Origin: Sulfitobacter sp. D7
Lineage (GTDB): Bacteria; Pseudomonadota; Alphaproteobacteria; Rhodobacterales; Rhodobacteraceae
Direction: 5' to 3'
Length of the DNA: 64,000 nucleotides
Assembly: GCF_003611275.1 (NCBI RefSeq)
Contig: NZ_CP020694.1
Coordinates: 248,001-312,000 of the forward strand
Of this stretch, positions 9,007 to 19,236 are shown piece after piece. The translations under genes and the position numbers were made by a program. The notes under the pieces were generated by a model. It worked only from the letters and a program-made list of their open reading frames with translations. It did no database searches and was not told the origin of the DNA. Each line of letters starts with the position of its first letter. Position 1 is the first letter of the stretch.

Positions 9007-9102
9007 GGGGTGCGTCTGTACGCAGACTGGGCGGCATAACGCCCCCTTGCGGGGCGCGTATCATCGGGGTCGGTTAAGACCTGATCTACAGTCAATCATC
9101 TG

Positions 9103-9127
9103 TCGGGGAATATTGGTGCCCAGGAGA
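9103..9127. repeat. Left attachment site (attL)
   Basis: This 25-base sequence is identical to 19140-19164, which covers the last 14 bases of tRNA-Leu(CAG) and 11 bases beyond it. The core reads TTGGTGCCCAGGAGA. At this copy the match stops and no tRNA follows, so it is the duplicated 3' fragment left by integration. Confidence 0.85.
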
Positions 9128-9279
9128 TGCCTTGAAGACTTGAACCTCTTCGTTTCACCTTGTTTCAAGCTGCACCTATTCTAATATTAACGCGTTGAAA
9201 TAGTTAAAATATATGTTTCATATTGCCCCAGGCGGAGCCATACTATCCCACAAGAAAAGGTGGTTAGGTAGGTGGATAG

Positions 9280-10464
9280 ATGGCGGCGAAAAACAAGCTT
9301 ACTGTGATGCAGGTGAAGAGTCTTCCGGCCGGAAAGTATGCAGATGGTATGGGACTGTGGTTCCACCGGAGAAAAGATGGAGGGGGGCAGTGGTTCCTGC
9401 GCGTCACGATCCATGGCCAACGCAGGGAAATGGGTCTCGGATCGATGGATGCTGTCGGACTTAAAGAAGCTCGTGAAGCTGCTAATCGCTGGCGTGCGAT
9501 TGCTAGGAAAGGCATGGATCCTATCAAAGAAAGAGACCGACTCCGCCGTAAAGCAGCGAGAGAGGACCATTCCTTCGCGACTATCGCTCGTCAAACCTTT
9601 GAAACGAAGAAAGCCGAATTGAAAGGGGATGGCAAGGCTGGGCGCTGGTTCTCGCCTCTAGAGCTACATGTTGTGCCCCGAATCGGACGGACTCCGGTCG
9701 AAGAAATTGACCAAAGAGACATTAAGAACGCCCTTTTACCAATCTGGGATAGCAAAGGTGAAACCGCAAGAAAGGCTCTGGGGCGTATTCGCATAGTTCT
9801 GCGCCATGCCGCTGCAATGGGCCTAGACGTCGATATCCAGGCTGCTGACAAAGCCAGAGAATTACTTGGTAAATCACGGCAAAAAAGCAAGCATGTCCCC
9901 GCCTTGCCGTGGGCAGAAGTGCCGTCGTTCTATGAGACTTTGTCGGATGGTACCACCACCCATCTTGCGCTACGGCTCCTCATCTTAACCGCTGTTCGTT
10001 CAGCAAATGTGCGCTTCCTACATCTAAGTGAAGTTGAGGGGGATACATGGATCATTCCCTCCGAAAAGACGAAAGCAGGTAGAGAGCACCGGGTACCCCT
10101 GTCTAATGCCGCGCAGAATGTCATTGCTACGGCAGCTGAAACTTCGCGAGATGGCTATCTATTTCCTAGTGTCAGGCGTGGAGTTATTTCAGATGCAACT
10201 ATGTCGCGTTTGATGGAGAGGCGTAATTTAAGAGCGCGGCCTCACGGGTTTAGGTCAAGTTTCCGGACATGGTGCGCTGAAGTTACTGATGTGCCACGAG
10301 AAATTGCGGAAATGGCATTGGCACACTCAGTTGGGACCAAAGTAGAGCTAGCATACCGCAGGACTGACTACTTGGAGCGGCGTAGGGCCTTAATGGATCA
10401 ATGGGCTAGCTTCGTGACAACAAATGAACCAAGCGGACCTCCGGTGTCTGGCGCGAACGCGTGA
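9280..10464 (+). CDS. int: P4-type tyrosine site-specific integrase
   Basis: Catalyses integration and excision of the island at the tRNA-Leu site. The 394-residue protein has an N-terminal arm-binding DUF4102-like domain (about 1-90, KYADGMGLWFHRRKDGG), a core-binding domain (about 100-190) and a catalytic domain. Visible catalytic residues are Arg in LTAVRSANVRF, the HxxR of HGFRSSFRTW, His in ALAHSVG and the nucleophilic Tyr in RRTDYLERR. It appears intact. It lies about 150 bases inside attL and its GTGA stop overlap couples it to the next gene. Confidence 0.92.
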   Translation: MAAKNKLTVMQVKSLPAGKYADGMGLWFHRRKDGGGQWFLRVTIHGQRREMGLGSMDAVGLKEAREAANRWRAIARKGMDPIKERDRLRRKAAREDHSFATIARQTFETKKAELKGDGKAGRWFSPLELHVVPRIGRTPVEEIDQRDIKNALLPIWDSKGETARKALGRIRIVLRHAAAMGLDVDIQAADKARELLGKSRQKSKHVPALPWAEVPSFYETLSDGTTTHLALRLLILTAVRSANVRFLHLSEVEGDTWIIPSEKTKAGREHRVPLSNAAQNVIATAAETSRDGYLFPSVRRGVISDATMSRLMERRNLRARPHGFRSSFRTWCAEVTDVPREIAEMALAHSVGTKVELAYRRTDYLERRRALMDQWASFVTTNEPSGPPVSGANA

Positions 10465-11171: not shown

Positions 11172-11275
11172 AACCGACTCTTGCCAGGCTGTGGGTAAAA
11201 ATTCTTTCTACCCACGCTTTATGGCGAGCCCTATGCCAATTCTGGGTGCAGTTGATACAAGCTGGAGCCCCTAGA

Positions 11276-11452
11276 ATGACCCCCCTTTACTATAACTTTC
11301 ATGATATCATGATTTTGACCGGACTTGGTCGCTCAACTATCTACCGTCGCATCGAAGACGGTACGCTGCCGGGGCCCGTAAAAATCGGTCACCGCTCGCT
11401 CTGGAGAAGGGATGAGTTCATCACAGCGTTGGCGCTCTTGGAGCGTCCATGA
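11276..11452 (+). CDS. AlpA-family DNA-binding regulator (excisionase-like)
   Basis: A 58-residue winged-HTH protein of the AlpA/MerR-like class that in P4-type islands regulates integrase or serves as excisionase. The diagnostic sequence is LTGLGRSTIYRRIEDGTLP followed by PVKIGHRSLWRRDEF. GGAG precedes the ATG at 11276; an in-frame ATG at 11246 has no family sequence. The stop overlaps the next start (ATGATG), so the two are coupled. It is a good candidate to bind dyads in the island. Confidence 0.85.
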   Translation: MTPLYYNFHDIMILTGLGRSTIYRRIEDGTLPGPVKIGHRSLWRRDEFITALALLERP

Positions 11453-11751
11453 TGAAGGTAGATGAAACCGTCAATCGTTTGGTTCCGGTGCATAGTGAAT
11501 GTTCCGACCTGTATTCCGAAGTTGTCTTCGTCTGGAAATTTTATCGGGTAATCGTGTGCGAGGATCGGCTCCAATGGATTCTGCAAAAATTTGCCGGACA
11601 AACTGTTCATGCTCAAGATTTTTGGGTTCCACTTGGGTACTTCACCTCTAGGCGAGCGCTTGAAAGGGTTTGGAAACAGGAGACCGGAAATAGTTTTCCT
11701 GCCTCCGTTCTTATGCCGATAAAGTTCAACATACCGGGTCGGAGCGGGTGA
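11449..11751 (+). CDS. Small island protein paired with AlpA-like regulator
   Basis: A 100-residue protein translated from an ATG overlapping the AlpA stop. It contains VIVCEDRLQWILQKFAGQ and a later FTSRRALERVWKQ segment. It resembles short proteins with a WILQ motif that I recall beside AlpA-like genes in alphaproteobacterial islands and prophages; their function is unknown to me. No membrane segment or catalytic motif is seen. Confidence 0.6.
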   Translation: MMKVDETVNRLVPVHSECSDLYSEVVFVWKFYRVIVCEDRLQWILQKFAGQTVHAQDFWVPLGYFTSRRALERVWKQETGNSFPASVLMPIKFNIPGRSG

Positions 11752-12063
11752 GCCGGAATCAATGCAACCCGTTGCAAAACCTGCTTTCTGAGCGGGGCTT
11801 TCGGCGAGAAACGAAATGCATACTGCAGGTGAACTGATTAACTGCGACGTTTACTGAACGGCGGGCCGTTCCCGAGGACCTCTCCCCGTTTCGGGCCATA
11901 GTGCGCAGCAATGCGGTTGCGTCCCATCGGTTTCTCTCCCGCTTCACGTTAACGGTAAATCCGCACCTACGATCAAAAAGCTCCGGCAATAATAGTGCGC
12001 GTATAGAGGCCAGATATGAGGAAAATAGCTATGGAACGATCTGGATCGTTGCAACGGGTTGCA
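11752..12063 (+). other. Non-coding, structured leader of the RT gene
   Basis: About 264 bases without a convincing ORF precede the RT start. TGCAACCCGTTGCA (11763-11776) and its exact reverse complement TGCAACGGGTTGCA (12050-12063) bracket the region and could pair over 15 bp. Inside lie a perfect hairpin GAACGG-CGGG-CCGTTC (11856-11871) and a CCCGA/TCGGG stem (11871-11895). RT systems often keep their template or partner RNA here, but each 14-mer is also a near-palindrome and could be a repressor site. Either reading is inference. Confidence 0.35.
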
Positions 12064-12609
12064 ACGGAAGACGCACAGCGTAGCTGGCGCAAGATGCAGG
12101 CAGACTCCCACTCCGCTTTCATTCAGAAGTCGCAACGCATTCAACTTGCTGCAGAATATGGAAAGCGTACCCAGCCAGTTGTGCGCGATTTTTTGCGGTC
12201 CTCGCATGTCCGGTTGAGCGCAGCATTAAGAGCGCTGGGAGGCACGCCCTGCCAAAGGACTGCGACTGAGCTGAGAGATGCAGTGAACATGTGGGGCGCG
12301 GAAGTTGACCCTGTCTTTTGGTACGAGAAAAAGAAAAATGGAGGCGGAGGTCGGCCAATCTGTAGATTCTCGCCGGTATTAATGTCGCGCCATAAGATGC
12401 TCGAGTTCGCTGTTCGACCCCAACTTCAGCCCGATCCAGGGTTGTTCGGGATTCCACAAGCAGGCCGGAGTCGTGATGATGCCGTCCGGGCCATCCGTAA
12501 GCTAGTGCTGTCCGGACATAGTCTCCTTGCTGAGGTGGATGTGAAGAACTGCTACCAGAGCATTAATCCTGACGCTCTTTATGAACTGCCACTACCAAAG
12601 CAGACATAA
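12016..12609 (+). pseudogene. Reverse transcriptase, 5' part (split by insertion)
   Basis: Residues 1-195 of a reconstructed 430-residue RNA-directed DNA polymerase. Visible parts are a helical N terminus, the motif 1-2 region (KKKNGGGGRPICRFSP, about 105-120) and motif A LLAEVDVKNCYQSI with catalytic Asp175. The native frame ends at the CTACCAAA repeat (12592-12599); three foreign codons and a TAA at 12607 follow. The ATG at 12016 has GAGG at good spacing; 12031 also has AGGA. Without motifs B-C the fragment cannot polymerise. It is not an obvious retron or group II intron RT; the class is unassigned. Confidence 0.75.
12592..12599 (+). repeat. Target-site duplication, left copy
   Basis: CTACCAAA, identical to 16369-16376. 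Eight bases is the usual IS66-family duplication. It marks 12600 as the left end of the inserted DNA. Confidence 0.8.
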
Positions 12610-13226
12610 ACGGGGCCGCCTAGTCAGGGGAACGACAAGCCAGAACTCTTACCCTTTCCCATCCGGGAAAAACTTGGGTCGGCCTGTCTACACATTTTCC
12701 GGGTGGCGCCTGTCACGCGAGCTGATCTTTACAAATCTCGTTCAACCAAGAGCTTCTTCGGGTGAACCTTTGCTGAGCGGCTTTCAGACCGGCGAGACTC
12801 CGTTCTTGTTGACGGCCTCTTCGTTGCTTTGGTGCGTTGCGGCGGCGCGGGCCGAGCTGTGACGCGCAGGACGCGGACGACATGCGCGACGCGCTTCTGC
12901 ATGAGGCGGCAGAGGCGCGCCGCTTGCCCTCTGATCCTGACTGGGACGTCATCGAAAACTCCGGCCTCACCTGGGGCGGGCCGATCAGGGAGCAGGGTGG
13001 ACCGTGGTAGGATCACCTGGAACGATTGGGCGGTTTGGGAGAGCGCACGCCCGACAACTTCAAGACGTTCGATTTCTTCGACGAAGATCGAGGCCTTGCC
13101 ACAAGCGCAAAGACGCTCGAAACCCGCGCGCCGGGATATGCGGACCGGCCCAGCCGTATCTTTGGTGCATTGAAGCGCTATATTGATCAGATCGACAAGT
13201 TTGGAGGGGGTGTCGTAGGAGAAACA
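12600..13226. other. Captured donor flank with no intact gene
   Basis: This stretch belongs to the composite insertion but lies outside the core IS66 element. Both strands hold only short frames without ribosome-binding sites or family motifs. Longer frames reading across it are broken or run into the ArdA-like remnant next to it. It is best read as DNA from the IS66 element's previous location. Confidence 0.5.
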
Positions 13227-13363
13227 GTAATACTGCAAGCTCTCTGGGATTTCACCGTAAAGCCCTTCATCTACAAACTTCTCGGCCAGCTCCCGCAATG
13301 TCTCGACATGGTAGATGTCAATGTCATGCTGACCGAGCATTTCCTCGAAAGTGTATCCGCATT
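13227..13363 (-). pseudogene. ArdA-like antirestriction gene remnant
   Basis: Read on the minus strand, about 45 codons resemble the C-terminal half of ArdA, the DNA-mimic inhibitor of type I restriction enzymes carried by plasmids and conjugative elements. Key pieces are GYTFEEML, then DIDIYHVETLRELAEKF and VDEGLYGEIPESLQYY. The similarity starts exactly at the inner IS66 end (13364), where the upstream half is missing. It degenerates after QYY at 13227. This suggests IS66 once sat in an ardA-like gene elsewhere. Family assignment is by motif memory only. Confidence 0.45.
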
Positions 13364-13426
13364 GTAAGCATCCAGGGAAGCCCCTCTGCACTGTGATCAT
13401 AGCAGCTCGTTGATTGTCATTCGGCG

Positions 13427-13756
13427 CTAATGATTGGCCGTGGTTCCGACCAGTTTCAGCCCAACAATCCCAGCAACAATCAAGAGAAGACAGGCGACAC
13501 GAGCCAAGTCTTTTTGCTCTCCCAAGATGGTCATTCCAATAATAGCAACGCCCACAGCCCCAATACCTGCCCAAACGGCATATGCAGTACCTACGGGAAT
13601 GTCTTTCATTGCTTCAGCCAAGAGCCAGAAGCTTGCGATCATTGCGAGCACGGTCAGGACAGATGGCTGAAGTTTCGTGAAGCCTTGAGTGTATTTCAGA
13701 CCAATTACCCACCCACATTCAAGAAGACCCGCAAAGAACAAGTAAACCCAAGCCAT
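13427..13756 (-). CDS. SMR-family efflux protein, SugE/Gdx type (IS66 passenger)
   Basis: A 109-residue small multidrug resistance protein with four membrane helices. Essential membrane Glu13 (GLLECGW), GFTKLQPS and [17 protein letters not shown] match the SugE/Gdx branch, whose characterised members export guanidinium and some quaternary ammonium compounds; the true substrate here is unknown. GGAGG lies just before the ATG. It is 32 bases downstream of tnpC in the same direction and lies between the IS66 inverted repeats, so it moves with the element. Confidence 0.88.
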
Positions 13757-13788
13757 TTTACCTCCATAGGCGTCAATGAAAAGTTTGA

Positions 13789-15492
13789 TCAGGCGGCGTG
13801 TTGATCCCCGACCTCAGCATTCTGCGCGTTGATCATGCCCTGAGATGCCCAAGGTAGCAACAGGGGGATGCGATTGACGGGATGATCCTGGATGCGTTCG
13901 AGCACCCAAGCGAGCCAGGCTTCGGGATTGACGTTGTTCATCTTTGCGGTCTCGATGAGAGTATAGGCGATTGCTGCGGATTTGCCGCCTGCCTCTGACC
14001 CCATGAAGAGGTAGTTCTTTCTTCCAACGGCCACAGGACGCACTGCCCGCTCGGCTGTGTTATTGTCGATTTCCAAGAAGCCGTTGTCGAGATAAGGCCG
14101 TGCCTTTGGCAGGCGCGCGAGGGCATATCGGATGGCCTTAGCCAGTGGCGTCTTGCCGGAGATTTTACCCAACTGCTCCTTGAGCCAGATCTCCAGATCA
14201 TCAAAGATGGGCTTGGCGAGTTCCTGACGCAGGGCCACGCGCTCATGGGGTGGTAGGAACCGTGCCTGTGTTTCAACGTCATAGAGCTTTCGAATGCGCA
14301 AGACCGCTTCGCCCGCCACAGGCAGCTTCAGGCTTTCATACAGGGCATAAAACTCCCGTCGCACATGGGCCATACAGGCCATCTCCTTGATGCGCCCCGT
14401 GCGGTAGGCATCGTTATAGCCTGCATAGGCGTCCGCATGGGCGTAGCCCGTGTAGGATTTGAGATGTTCGCTCGGGTGTTCCGCACCTCGGTTGGTGGAG
14501 AACTGATACCACACGGCGGGTGGCGCGGCCCCGGACCAGGCGCTCTCATCTCGGGCATAGACCCATAGCCGTGCGGTTTTGCTCTTGTTTTTGCCACGCC
14601 CTTTGCCCTTCTGGAGCAGCTTGACCGTGGTATCATCCATGAAGATGGCTTGTGCCTCAAACACATGGTCACGGATGGCATCTGCCACGCGTTCAAGCAG
14701 CTTGGTGCATTTGCCCACCCAGAGGGCCATGAGCGATCCGCTCAGGTCGATGCCTTCGTTCTCAAACATCTGGCTTTGGCGATAGAGCGGCAGGTGATAG
14801 CCGTATTTGCAGCACAGGATATGCGCCATCAGCGCGGGACCCACAAAGCTCTTGGGGATGGGGCGGCTTGGCATCTCCGCCTGAACCACCTTGTCACAGC
14901 AGCTACAGGCCAAACGCGGGCGGTTGATCTGATTGACGATGTAATGGCCTGGAACATATTCCAACTCTTCCAGAACATCTGTTCCCAGCTCCCTGAAGCG
15001 GCCACCACAGTCTTCACAGGTCTCACCGGGGGTGATGGTCTTCTTGACCCGCTTAAGCCCCTTTGGGAAAGGCTTGCGTTTGCGCGGGGTGCGCGGCGGC
15101 TTTGGGACGTCTGCCTCGGAAGACGTCTGGCCCTCACCATCACCTTCAGTCTCTGCGGCTTGCTCGATCTCCAACTCTTCGAGGATCAGTTCCAGCGCCA
15201 GTTGCGCGCTGCTTTCCGACTTTGACCCAAAGCGGTGCTTTTTGTGACCATGCAATTGCAAGCGCAGATCAGCAATGAGGGTATCTCGGCTCTGGATGGC
15301 CCGCGCATGGGCGGTGCGCTCGGCAGCAAGGGCGGCTTCCATCTCATCCTTGAGGCGTTTTTGGGCGGAGGCATGGCTCAACGATTGGCCCAACAACTCC
15401 GCATCCTTACGGGCCAGTTCCGCCGCTTGTGCGGCTACAAAGGCCTGCACGTCAGGTGGCAGATCAGCCAGATTTGGAGGGGTCTTACGCAT
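13789..15492 (-). CDS. tnpC: IS66 family transposase TnpC
   Basis: DDE-type transposase of 567 residues. Residues 1-60 form a coiled, charged N terminus, followed by a TnpC-specific zinc-binding region with Cys pairs (CEDCGG, CSCCDK, about 165-210). The catalytic core has [21 protein letters not shown] and the Glu motif [11 protein letters not shown]. The start at 15492 gives the family N terminus [15 protein letters not shown]; an ATG at 15507 adds five residues. No frameshift is seen, so it should be active. Confidence 0.92.
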
Positions 15493-15561
15493 GCCATTCC
15501 ATAGCAAAATCGGACATCAGGGGGAATCCCAAAACAGCAAGAAAGCCCATAAAACATTGCC

Positions 15562-15909
15562 TCAGCCCACCATCGCGGGCCGCCATGTCTTCTGCGGCAT
15601 GCGCCAGTCTATGCCTTCCATCAGCATGGCCAACTGCGCGCGGCTCAGGTTGATTTTACCCTCGCTGGCCGTGGGCCAGACAAACCGACCCCGCTCCAAG
15701 CGCTTGGTGAACAAGCATGCACCCTGACCGTCCCACCAGATCATCTTGATCTGATCACCTCGCCGTCCCCGGAACAAAAACAGATGGCCGGAATAGGGAT
15801 CGCCCGCCAGAACCTGCGCGGTCTGTGCCGCCAGACCGTTGAACCCACGCCGCATGTCCGTCACACCCGCCGCCAGCCAGATCTTCGCATCCGCCAGAAC
15901 AGGGATCAT
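15562..15909 (-). CDS. tnpB: IS66 accessory protein TnpB
   Basis: The conserved 115-residue accessory protein of IS66 elements. It contains [29 protein letters not shown] and [19 protein letters not shown], the hallmark segments of the family. Its ATG overlaps the tnpA stop by four bases, the translational coupling usual in this family. It is required for transposition in studied IS66 members; its biochemical role is not established. Confidence 0.93.
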
Positions 15910-16271
15910 GCCGCCAGCCCCCGCGCCAGTTCCAGCACAAAGCCAGCATCAACCCCGTCGCTAACGCTCAGCTTGCGCCCATTCTCCAGCGTGATCTCTA
16001 TCCGGGAGCTGGCTGTAGGCCGCGCTTCCGGCAGCATCGGTACTGCATCGTGATCGCCGCCTGAAATCTCAACAGGCATGAACCCGGCATCATCAGACCC
16101 ATCGGGTTGAAACCTGTCATCGCTGCGCCACGAATAAATCCGGCTTGTCGGCACGCCATGACGGCGAGAAACCATCGGCACACTGACACCATCGGCTTGG
16201 CTCTCTGCCACCAACCGCCGCTTGAACTCATCCGAGTATTTGGAACCCCGCCCAACCCGCCGTTTACTCAT
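15906..16271 (-). CDS. tnpA: IS66 accessory protein TnpA (HTH)
   Basis: A 121-residue DNA-binding accessory protein, first gene of the IS66 operon. The N-terminal helix-turn-helix reads [20 protein letters not shown] then [15 protein letters not shown], the transposase-8-like motif. The C-terminal half has [18 protein letters not shown]. It starts 97 bases inside the right inverted repeat, leaving room for the IS promoter. Confidence 0.92.
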
Positions 16272-16368
16272 CTCAAAACCCTCATATTGCGCCAGTCAAA
16301 TCGCCAGCCTCGCGCAATAATCGCACCTCAAATCAGCCCAAAATAGAGGGGGTTCCCTTGATGCTTAC

Positions 16369-16376
16369 CTACCAAA
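16369..16376 (+). repeat. Target-site duplication, right copy
   Basis: CTACCAAA, identical to 12592-12599. It directly abuts the right IS66 end. From here the RT frame continues without interruption. Confidence 0.8.
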
Positions 16377-17085
16377 GGAGGTGATTTACAGAAACTTAGA
16401 TGCAAGAAACCTCATATTCCAGAGGGACGGTGGAGGGATGCATGCTTCCAATCTGCCTACCTATGGGGTCGAGGACATTGAGAACTCAAGCGGACCTCGG
16501 GGCCTTTTGCAGGGCTCTCCGGCGTCAAGCGTGATCCTTGCATGGTTCATTAACGGTATTCTCCTGCGGATGCCGAAGTGCGACAATGCGAGAATAGTGG
16601 TTTGTTTTGACAACATTTACGTTGCTGGGCGGACCCGCGCGGGGCTACGGACGATGGTGGATATTCTGGCCGAAGCTTTTGATCGGTGCTCCTTCGGTCC
16701 GCTTGAACTCTCTCCTCCAAAGCTCGGTGATGCAGACGGCCTGGACGTCATGGGTTATCTTGTAAGTCCAGATGGAAGAATTGGGTTATCGCACCGGGCA
16801 CTATGTAAATTGGAACGACGTCTTTGTTCCGCGGAGGAGCGAGACAGCTGGGAAACAGGCGAGGTTCCGTTTCGAACTTGGAGAGCTCTGCGCAGGTTCC
16901 GGACAGGTTTTAGCGCAGCAGAAGATATCCGTTCAGAGCTCGCATATTATATCGAAAATTCTAGGGAATTAGCGGAGGCGACAGGCAGTCCTTTAATTTC
17001 TTACCTCCATGAATCGGTGTTTGCCCGCTCGTCGTCTTTTGAAGGGAAGTTTATTGAAGGTCTCATTGAGTACAGAGCTGGGTAA
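16369..17085 (+). pseudogene. Reverse transcriptase, 3' part (split by insertion)
   Basis: Continuation of the RT interrupted at 12599, residues 196-430 of the reconstructed protein. Motif B is RGLLQGSPASSVILAWFI (about 236-253). Motif C is CFDN (271-274) in IVVCFDNIYVAG, where most RTs have YxDD, so the second Asp is Asn. Motif D/E pieces are LELSPPKLG and LDVMGYLV, and a C-terminal helical region of about 100 residues follows. A GTG at 16381 could start a fragment but motif A would be missing. The frame is free of stops, which implies a recent interruption. Confidence 0.75.
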
Positions 17086-17175: not shown

Positions 17176-17604
17176 TTAAACGAGCTCGACATTTTCTAGC
17201 TGAACATACCATGTAGCTTCTTGCCGGAGCCCGCGCTTTTGCCCATTGGTGAACTTATTGGGGCGCGGATTTCCCCATACCTCACCGTGGTGTGGATTAT
17301 CATCCACGGGTTCATAACCAATCCACAAATTGAGATTGCGGATGGAGTTTGCAGAAAATTGTACTGAGCCGGTGAAAACTGGCGTAGTCACAAACTCAGC
17401 CGGCTCAACTCCAGCGGCAATTATCTTAGCCTCGATATCCACCGACATACCTCCATAATCACCAGATGAAGGGGAGTAAGCTTTGGAAGATATACGGTGG
17501 CACTGATTGTTTTCGTCCCAAACAATATGTTGTTTGGGGTCAATACGTCGGATAATCACTGCTTCTGGAGAGATATCCTCTTCGTCGTAGGGCGGCACAG
17601 GCAA
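17176..17604 (-). CDS. Hypothetical protein, third gene of TIGR04255 cassette
   Basis: A 142-residue soluble protein of unknown function. It has VIIRRIDPKQHIVWDENN, RISSKAYSPSSGDYGGMSVD and a closing aromatic segment ending WYVQLENVEL. It lies five bases after the second cassette gene. No ATG fits; TTG at 17604 or GTG at 17598 is the likely start, so the N terminus is uncertain. The RRI...SSKAY...MSVD pattern looks like a family rather than chance sequence, but I cannot name it. Confidence 0.6.
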   Translation of the reverse strand: MPVPPYDEEDISPEAVIIRRIDPKQHIVWDENNQCHRISSKAYSPSSGDYGGMSVDIEAKIIAAGVEPAEFVTTPVFTGSVQFSANSIRNLNLWIGYEPVDDNPHHGEVWGNPRPNKFTNGQKRGLRQEATWYVQLENVELV

Positions 17605-17609
17605 GAGTA

Positions 17610-18113
17610 CTAAGTTCCTGTTTGCAGCTGAGGACCGCGCTCCTCACCTAGTTGTGACATCCATTCAGTCAATGCAGTGAAGTCAGCCTGTACTTCGATC
17701 TCTTCATCCTCCCCAGTAAGATGATCGAAGCGGCTAGCATTCACTTCATATGGGGCGAGGACGTCGAGCTCTACATCGAAGCCGTTGATGTGCCACTCTA
17801 GCTGGAGCGTCCCGTCATCACCTGGAACGAGTTGTGGGGCGGGCACATTTGCGCAGAAAAGTCTCTCGATGAGAGCTGCCGCAAATTGCGCACAGGTGAA
17901 TGATACCGGCGCTCCATCATACCCATTCCACCCTCTTGGAAGGGCAGTCAGCTCATTTAAACGGTCTTCTAACTCTTCAAACCAAGGAGAGGTTGGTTGG
18001 GCGACGCGAGCTTTGCGTCCAAACCTGCCAATGGACGATACATTCGAAGTGCCCGCAAAGTAGTTAGGAACCTCATCTTGAAAGGCTGAGCTGGTCAACG
18101 AATTCCGTTTCAT
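17610..18113 (-). CDS. Hypothetical protein, second gene of TIGR04255 cassette
   Basis: A 167-residue acidic, soluble protein of unknown function. The core has LNELTALPRGWNGYDGAPVS followed by an Ala-rich helix, then DDGTLQLEWHINGFDVELDV. A C-terminal acidic stretch (GEDEEIEVQ) precedes the end. Its ATG overlaps the stop of the TIGR04255 gene as TAATG with GGGG nine bases upstream, so the two are translationally coupled. An in-frame ATG at 18128 is less likely. Confidence 0.65.
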   Translation of the reverse strand: MKRNSLTSSAFQDEVPNYFAGTSNVSSIGRFGRKARVAQPTSPWFEELEDRLNELTALPRGWNGYDGAPVSFTCAQFAAALIERLFCANVPAPQLVPGDDGTLQLEWHINGFDVELDVLAPYEVNASRFDHLTGEDEEIEVQADFTALTEWMSQLGEERGPQLQTGT

Positions 18114-18913
18114 TATTTTATGCCCCATATTTCATGTGCAGACTGACTAGTAAGTTCTTCAAATCTCGTAACTATCTTTTCACGACCACCCGCGATAAAA
18201 TCATCTACAGAAGAGATGTCTCGCCCTGCGGGTTTACCTTTATAGGTTAGCGAAAATCGAAATGCTCTTCTCTTCCCGTCTGGAGTAAAAACCGATTGGA
18301 TCTCATACTTCAATCTAGCAAACGGTCTATCGTGTTCGTCCCTTATTACTTCACTGAAGCTAGTGTTAATACCCTCCACTTCAAAGTGAGTGTCGTTCCA
18401 GAAGCTGAACCACTTCGATGGGTGAGAGAAGTCTTCGACTGGAATGATATTAATATAGGCTACTTCAGCTTGGTTTACATCGGTCGAGTGTCCGAAGCTC
18501 TTTTCAAGGTGGGAAAACAGCTTGGTTAGATTTTTGCTGAAAGAGTCTGCGATACCTTCAAATCTCGGATAGGTTCCTTGAGAGTTCTGACGCCGCCAAT
18601 TCGTAATCATTCGGTCTGGCTGGAATTGAAGTATGTGGTTGCCGTCTTCAGAGATGAACCAAAGTCGGCTTCCGACTGGCGGCTGCCCAAAATGAAACTT
18701 TGGGCCTTGGTCGGAGTTGGGGCCGCCGAATGTTTCGAAGTGTGTATCAAGAACTGGCTGTTCCTCGACAGAAGGGAACTCACCTCGGAACAACTCCCAA
18801 AGATCTTTAGAGTGTACGGCAAGATATCCGGGTACAGGGGTAAACTGTACACCCAAGACCACTTCATCAAGCGGAGGGTCGGAAAAGTCTGGAAGGTGTT
18901 CTGGTCGTGTCAT
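18113..18913 (-). CDS. TIGR04255-family protein
   Basis: A 266-residue protein matching the sporadically distributed TIGR04255 family, whose function is unknown. Supporting pieces are PPLDEVVLGVQF near the N terminus, HILQFQPDRMITNWRRQ (about 97-113) and YPRFEGI. It is the promoter-proximal gene of a minus-strand trio at the right end of the island. The scattered family distribution and island location fit a mobile accessory function such as defence or toxin-antitoxin, but nothing in the sequence proves this. Confidence 0.75.
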   Translation of the reverse strand: MTRPEHLPDFSDPPLDEVVLGVQFTPVPGYLAVHSKDLWELFRGEFPSVEEQPVLDTHFETFGGPNSDQGPKFHFGQPPVGSRLWFISEDGNHILQFQPDRMITNWRRQNSQGTYPRFEGIADSFSKNLTKLFSHLEKSFGHSTDVNQAEVAYINIIPVEDFSHPSKWFSFWNDTHFEVEGINTSFSEVIRDEHDRPFARLKYEIQSVFTPDGKRRAFRFSLTYKGKPAGRDISSVDDFIAGGREKIVTRFEELTSQSAHEIWGIK

Positions 18914-19139
18914 TTTTCTCCCCTAGGAGAATTTGTATCTAAGCAACCTACGGTACTCCAGTCCTTTCTTGGGCCCGGAAGTAAATTTCCTTGACTAATT
19001 TGATTCTCGGTGACGCCAAGGCAGCTAATCTGCTAGGCGATTCTCTATGATTGCGCTGTCCAGCGATGTGACTGGGGTGGTCAGGGAGGTGGTTGGAGGT
19101 CCCCCTGATCCCTAATTTCCGATATATTTCAATTACTTA

Positions 19140-19164
19140 TCGGGGAATATTGGTGCCCAGGAGA
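19140..19164. repeat. Right attachment site (attR)
   Basis: The 25-base copy identical to 9103-9127. It spans the 3' end of the intact tRNA-Leu(CAG) (from 19151) and 11 bases beyond CCA. Island DNA lies to its left and the chromosome to its right. Confidence 0.85.
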
Positions 19165-19236
19165 GGACTCGAACCTCCACACCGTTGCCAGTACTAGCAC
19201 CTGAAGCTAGCGCGTCTACCATTCCGCCACCTGGGC
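19151..19236 (-). tRNA. tRNA-Leu (anticodon CAG)
   Basis: An 86-base class II tRNA on the minus strand. The acceptor GCCCAGG pairs with CCTGGGC, followed by A and an encoded CCA. The anticodon arm CTAGC-TTCAGGT-GCTAG gives anticodon CAG, and a long variable arm and the T arm GGTTCGAGTCC are present. It reads CUG, the main Leu codon in GC-rich genomes. Island integration has kept the gene intact. Confidence 0.96.

Follow-up and report, generated by a model that had tools for sequence, protein, structure and literature searches.

We propose a model for the interruption of a reverse transcriptase (RT) gene in Sulfitobacter sp. D7, within a 64-kb stretch of contig NZ_CP020694.1 (64,000 nucleotides, positions 248,001 to 312,000; hereafter the window, in whose numbering coordinates are given). 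The RT gene, part of an island at a tRNA-Leu gene, would have been hit by a single recent transposition out of a resident plasmid. In this event the transposase of an IS66-family insertion sequence (IS) would have used its true right inverted repeat and, on the left side, would have passed over its own inverted repeat and taken instead a similar sequence 764 bp beyond it, where an aminotransferase gene of the plasmid has its 3′ end. The segment so defined, 3,769 bp long, would then have entered the RT gene between motifs A and B, duplicating 8 bp. To the whole account, that of a plasmid-derived IS66 unit with a true right end and a surrogate left end that split the RT gene, we assign a probability of roughly 85%.

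The split RT gene

The N-terminal part of the RT gene (12016-12599, plus strand) carries the motif A aspartate and runs on in frame into the insert as far as a stop at 12609, while the C-terminal part (16377-17085, plus strand) carries motif B (QGSPAS) and motif C (CFDN), so that the insertion point lies between motifs A and B. By sequence match, CTACCAAA occurs at 12592-12599 and again at 16369-16376, immediately 3′ of the right inverted repeat of the IS, and at no other site in the window; the insert between the two copies (12600-16368) is 3,769 bp long. Most of what a first-pass annotation had proposed for this region from the letters alone holds up: both repeat positions are as described, insert and one repeat copy together make 3,777 bp, divisible by three, with both RT halves open and in the same phase, the motif A aspartate is correctly assigned to Asp175, and RT similarity breaks off and resumes at the insert borders, the first piece matching the family profile over positions 5-196 and the second over 193-451. 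Two of its claims stood only in part, as motif C reads CFDN and not xDD, and as the insertion that splits the gene is not a simple IS but an IS plus 764 bp of plasmid DNA.

Taken alone, the CTACCAAA pair is weak evidence, with 0.55 matches expected by chance in the window and at least two matches in 10 of 100 shuffles. It becomes informative because its two positions coincide with both borders of the insert: on the right it adjoins the right inverted repeat of the IS66 element, and on the left it stops exactly where a block of 3,769 bp identical to plasmid DNA begins; the chance of an 8-bp identity at two fixed places is, by simple arithmetic, 4^-8. These sequence features support the reading that one RT gene was split by one transposition that left an 8-bp duplication, and the split RT is presumably no longer functional.

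Continuity of the gene was assessed by aligning the two halves separately, never joined, against 90 homologue sequences. Of these, 75 are proteins from databases and 15 are open frames taken from genome loci, five of the frames being copies of database rows. Each half matches all 90, and the C half resumes at exactly the expected residue in 75 of them, the remaining 15 deviating by 1-24 residues. Uninterrupted relatives, whose existence had been anticipated, are thus represented by 75 database proteins (P0002-P0076) that span the junction, and the check for continuity suggested at first pass comes out in favour of a single gene. Among the eight best-scoring homologues the N half is 42-48% identical and the C half 37-43%, from which it follows that no close uninterrupted allele was found. 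When the C half was searched in 145 relatives the source genome itself was the sole match; the family profile recovered, beyond the source genome, two distant RTs only in 394 genomes of the bacterial family, and three distant RTs and one full-length member, identical to that of locus L015, in 390 genomes of the order. Collections of viral contigs, plasmids and phages yielded no relatives of the RT.

The insert and its probable plasmid source

The right-hand 3,005 bp of the insert (13364-16368, minus strand) are a complete IS66-family element with a passenger gene. Its genes, all on the minus strand, encode TnpA (15906-16271; NCBIfam NF047595, 9e-21), TnpB (15562-15909; NF033819, 1.2e-35), the IS66 DDE transposase TnpC (13789-15507; NF033517, 1.7e-128) and, as passenger, a sugE-like SMR transporter (13427-13756; PRK11431.1, 133.9 bits against a cut-off of 126). 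Assignment to IS66 follows from tnpA, tnpB and the IS66 DDE transposase, recognised by Pfam and NCBIfam matches, together with inverted repeats of 24 nt that begin GTAAGC and are 92% identical, and 8-bp duplications at two other copies. The left-hand 764 bp (12600-13363) hold the last 24 nt of an aminotransferase gene followed by two hypothetical genes, and their first 24 nt form the putative surrogate IS end. A simple IS66 insertion was rejected because neither the ends of the IS nor its flanks fit the border at 12600: the IS ends at 13364 and 16368, and the 8 bp to its left differ from its right flank.

All 3,769 bp of the insert are identical to plasmid contig C4 of the same genome, and because every one of the 3,769 positions still matches the plasmid copy we regard the insertion as recent, as had been surmised. 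The insert is also identical to S. faviae plasmid NZ_CP116427.1, where the gene order is the end of the aminotransferase gene, two hypothetical genes, sugE, the IS66 transposase gene, tnpB and a further transposase gene, and where the aminotransferase gene is unbroken across the position of the insert's left border. Six plasmid records, each of them from Sulfitobacter, match the left part of 764 bp; another Sulfitobacter plasmid is alike over 628 of the 764 bp and has no IS within the 8.6 kb viewed. As the left part carries the tail of a gene belonging to the plasmid, the movement would have been from plasmid to chromosome.

The genome holds four identical full copies of the IS and one 78-bp fragment. 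At the two other chromosomal copies 8 bp, GAGACTAC or TGCCGATC, are duplicated right at the ends of the 3,005 bp, and only the copy in the RT gene extends beyond that length. It has the plasmid's left flank on the left of the IS and CTACCAAA on the right, and because it carries that left flank it would derive from the plasmid copy with 764 bp attached. The 764 bp and one IS copy are enclosed in a single CTACCAAA duplication, the arrangement of a transposable module.

Alternative origins of the insert

Compared with the right inverted repeat, the putative surrogate end, the first 24 nt from the left border, agrees at 14 of 24 positions, which is equalled by 18 of 23,954 24-mers of the plasmid stretch when both strands are counted and the true ends and the border itself are included. 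Two observations weigh against our account. The tip of the surrogate end matches only 5 of the first 8 bases, as do 485 of the 23,954 positions; the likeness is spread out and not concentrated at the tip, which makes the surrogate end plausible but not proven. Furthermore, the plasmid IS copy (contig C4) lacks a target duplication of its own, the bases beside it being TCCGCATT to the left and CATAAAGG to the right; this points to rearranged DNA adjoining the copy at the donor site and makes an older, longer unit ending at 12600 possible.

It is on this missing duplication, and the donor rearrangement that it implies, that the better of two alternatives draws, namely that the unit was a larger or composite transposon, truly ending at 12600, that later lost part of its length, so that no surrogate end was involved. 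We consider this improbable. Position 12600 is no end of this IS, the true left repeat of which lies at 13364; the left border falls inside an aminotransferase gene that the S. faviae plasmid carries intact; and the same 3,769 bp stand uninterrupted in contig C4, making a later loss within the unit unnecessary. The second alternative, homologous or illegitimate recombination with the plasmid and an 8-bp repeat arising by chance, is very improbable. Pairs of 8 bp as such are not uncommon in the window, but the two copies of this one coincide with the two borders of the block shared with the plasmid, and duplications of the same length flank two further copies of this IS. In addition, the plasmid bases preceding the left border are AACTGGCC and not CTACCAAA, and contig C4 outside the insert has no match to window positions 12400-16600 (E 1e-5).

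Comparison with known mobile units

Transposition from one true end and one look-alike end with duplication of the target is familiar from ISEcp1-type mobilisation (IS1380 family), in which alternative right ends are used. A limited literature search over titles and opening abstracts found no report in which an IS66 element uses a surrogate end to carry adjacent DNA along. The closest described units, as far as the available part of the source goes, are the transposable modules (TMos) of Paracoccus, in which an IS1380-family IS moves with adjacent DNA (PMC3281130); they resemble our insert in that one IS copy travels with neighbouring genomic DNA and differ in the family named, IS1380 there and IS66 here. 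The same text describes TMos as hard to spot in silico except where they sit within a highly conserved context (PMC3281130), and here the RT gene serves as that context.

IS66-family elements with passenger genes (tIS66), such as ISPa75 with fosZ, are likewise on record, and the accessible portion of that report suggests capture of fosZ by IS66 elements (PMC12888890). This IS shares with the tIS66 elements described there tnpA, tnpB and a DDE transposase, a passenger downstream of the transposase gene, a length of about 3 kb, GTAAGC-type ends and target duplications (PMC12888890); it differs in its passenger, sugE, and in that one of its four full copies carries 764 bp past the regular left end. 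The one-ended transposition of IS801 (IS91 family) also combines one true end with a variable other end of partial likeness and carries flanking DNA along, but proceeds by the IS91-family mechanism, for which the part of the source at hand names no duplication (PMC3189936), in contrast to the 8 bp duplicated here.

The RT family

The RT family to which the split gene belongs is sparse and alphaproteobacterial, searches having returned 75 proteins besides the window's own, of which the named ones are alphaproteobacterial and mostly from Rhodobacterales. Palm motifs A, B and C follow one another in order and the fold is that of an RT: six of seven intact homologues scanned pass the RVT_1 cut-off (P0022 fails), and an AlphaFold2 model of homologue P0014 (mean predicted local distance difference test score, pLDDT, 89.1) matches RTs. 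Motif counts were taken from 95 rows, 90 of them different, which include three distant RTs. The residue after the first motif C Asp is Asn in 91 of the 95 and Asp in four, that first Asp and the motif B Gly are kept in all 95, and the motif A Asp in all 94 rows that have a letter there. The three distant RTs come from related-integrase islands (L062, L066 and L072) and all read YADN. A subgroup of the family (L018, L019, L021 and L022) keeps an Asp-Asp motif C, as YADD, FGDD or YGDD; the RT of L022 (2750-3975) apparently runs over two overlapping frames, through a frameshift or a sequence error. In a tree of the same rows, midpoint-rooted and with long branches, the four Asp-Asp rows form one group (support 100/99) and the three distant Asp-Asn RTs another (98/97), and the placement of the window RT is weakly supported (81/42).

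The family was assigned to none of the classes listed in the comparisons. The P0014 model matches RTs of diversity-generating retroelements (DGRs), G2L4 RTs and group II intron RTs about equally, with Foldseek and VIA-align placing several RT classes near one another, and all three differ from it in that motif C here is Asp-Asn with no YIDD. With motifs taken from the available part of the 2014 survey (PMC4244168), the DGR motif (I/V/L)GxxxSQ fits none of the 95 rows, motif C is never YVDD or YMDD, and the YIDD of G2L4 is found in none. According to the same source 47% of retron RTs have VTG in domain 7 (PMC4244168); VTG, counted irrespective of position, occurs in 14 of our 95 rows. PADLOC gave weak matches to RT_UG4 (2.9e-05 for the C half, 9.8e-05 for P0002), and these matches, low and spread over several RT models, do not assign the family to a UG type; like DRT/UG RTs, it is island-borne.

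From the sequences, an intact RT of this family is most probably an active polymerase whose motif C reads Asp-Asn, since the Asn is near-invariant and the other motif residues counted are retained. GDN, for comparison, is a working motif in the polymerases of some negative-strand RNA viruses. The opposite reading, in which the family has lost polymerase activity and acts as a scaffold or regulator, so that the insertion destroyed no enzyme, draws on the replacement of the second Asp of the usual xDD in 91 rows and on the 2014 survey, in whose available part the RT groups with a quoted motif keep DD (PMC4244168). A decayed site should, however, drift, whereas the Asn hardly varies and the three other motif positions counted above are kept throughout, and we therefore think this reading unlikely, if not negligibly so. 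A limited literature search, including the accessible parts of PMC4244168 and PMC8934634, turned up no family of bacterial RTs whose motif C is Asp-Asn.

The island and related loci

The RT gene lies on an island of about 10 kb bounded by two 45-nt direct repeats that are 84% identical. The left attachment-like repeat (9092-9136) is followed by a tyrosine-type integrase gene (9280-10464, plus strand; NCBIfam PRK09692, 8.8e-32; PHROG integrase, 7.7e-48), and the right one (19129-19173) overlaps the 3′ end of the tRNA-Leu gene (19151-19236, minus strand). Between integrase and RT lie genes for an AlpA-like helix-turn-helix protein (11246-11452, plus strand; Pfam Phage_AlpA, 4.3e-08) and for a 100-aa protein (11449-11751, plus strand) that groups with reading frames upstream of the RT in five of the 16 other RT loci; its relatives are also found in two of the 17 islands that lack such an RT (L059 and L071). 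Across the 17 RT loci, that is 16 from genomes (L008-L023) and the window, several of them cut by contig ends, an integrase homologue is present in 13, the AlpA-like gene in 10 and the 100-aa protein in six.

On the other side of the RT gene, 17176-18913 on the minus strand holds a PADLOC PDC-M32A-like gene (5.2e-13), a weak PDC-M32B match (0.014) and a gene for a TIGR04255 protein; tblastn found none of the three in the other RT loci or in the integrase islands. In four other loci a small tryptophan-rich protein of 142-177 aa is encoded 3′ of the RT (L015:11367-11876, L016:3828-4265, L019:2956-3384 and L021:12401-12934), without a Pfam match in the three scanned (L015, L016 and L019).

Palindromic repeats near the RT genes

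The window holds two copies of a 16-bp palindrome: TTGCAACGGGTTGCAA at 12049-12064 places TTGCAACNNGTTGCAA within the first RT codons, and a copy with a CC centre and one mismatch to TTGCAACNNGTTGCAA lies 287 bp upstream (11762-11777). A 15-base form of TTGCAACNNGTTGCAA has one further site in the genome. A motif-free search, in which a locus passed with at least three similar 16-bp near-palindromes (TTGCAACNNGTTGCAA or variants), found such families in 12 of the 16 other RT loci and in one of the three islands with distant RTs, and in none of 17 related-integrase islands lacking this type of RT, 320 Markov-resampled loci or four window tiles. Below the threshold were the window, with its two copies, and L012, L013, L020 and L023. 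The 12 loci are partly dependent, L018 and L022 being 90% alike over 534 bp upstream and L009 and L017 coming from one strain. Among the islands with distant RTs, L072 carries a palindrome family of its own, GTGAACGNNCGTTCAC, and L062 and L066 carry none.

The half-sites vary by element, being TTGCAAC, TTGAACC in L009 and L010, or GTGAACG in L072. The central two bases are non-self-complementary in 52 of 55 sites, against 75% by chance. In the 11 genomes searched for it, TGCAACNNGTTGCA has 47 sites, of which 34 lie in RT stretches, 32 of these with a non-self-complementary centre; 3 of the 13 sites elsewhere have such a centre.

Sites for the integrase or for the AlpA-like protein are disfavoured, no palindrome (at most one mismatch) being found in any of 20 stretches beside integrases 58-69% identical, 17 without an RT of this kind and three with a distant RT, two of the 20 being short contig ends; an AlpA-like match is present in 15 of the 17 palindrome-free islands. 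That the palindromes are the ends of one conserved non-coding RNA is likewise unsupported as a general rule, as upstream matches between loci are mostly 16-29 nt. Exceptions are the close pairs L013/L014, L015/L017, L018/L022 and L019/L021 and some further combinations, among them L012 with L018/L022 as well as L015 with L021. An upstream alignment (A3) with four invariant columns in 548 was set aside and not used, and Rfam at the gathering score returned two tRNAs and nothing else. The window region 11755-12070 folds with a z score of -1.3, and six downstream units fold with z scores of -8.2 (L015, 11788-11856), -7.2 (L017), -4.3 (L015, 13536-13604), -2.8, -3.0 and -3.3, values to be read with the caveat that palindromic ends alone produce stems. 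In L015:11788-11856, L015:13536-13604 and L017:2892-2963 a CC-centre and a GG-centre palindrome form a terminal stem around short hairpins, and a non-coding RNA bounded by palindromes is possible in the subgroup with downstream units.

The palindromes may be read by the RT, a partner or a regulator. That they are operators of an ordinary dimeric repressor, unrelated to reverse transcription, we judge to be not far below an even chance: a spacer of 2 bp between two half-sites of 7 bp, half-site variation from element to element as in repressor-operator pairs, and copies near gene starts are what such operators would show. Set against it are the absence of palindromes from the 17 related-integrase islands without this RT, most of which have an AlpA-like gene, the copies inside the coding sequence of the RTs and of the L018 and L022 integrases, and the excess of non-self-complementary centres.

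Our own suggestion is more tentative, possible rather than probable: the split gene would come from an undescribed island-borne retroelement system of alphaproteobacteria, in which the conserved Asp-Asn RT works with the element-specific 16-bp palindromes as a recognition, priming or template-boundary signal for itself or for an obligate partner. The layout of the repeats, often with one inside or near the first RT codons and others before and after the gene, would be that of such a system. Against it speak the operator reading, four or five loci in which palindrome copies are few or absent, and the finding of no conserved RNA around the repeats.

Implications

The insertion is well explained as a variant of a known mechanism, and offers a readable case in which an IS66-family element brought plasmid DNA from beside it into the chromosome, the donor, the regular copies and the product all being present in one genome. 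Greater novelty lies in the RT family and its repeats. The hypothesis of a retroelement system can be tested in the intact relatives, as it cannot in the broken gene. Their catalytic motif differs from the xDD that the available part of the survey gives for RT groups (PMC4244168), and the family is linked to palindromic repeats that are absent from related-integrase islands without this RT.

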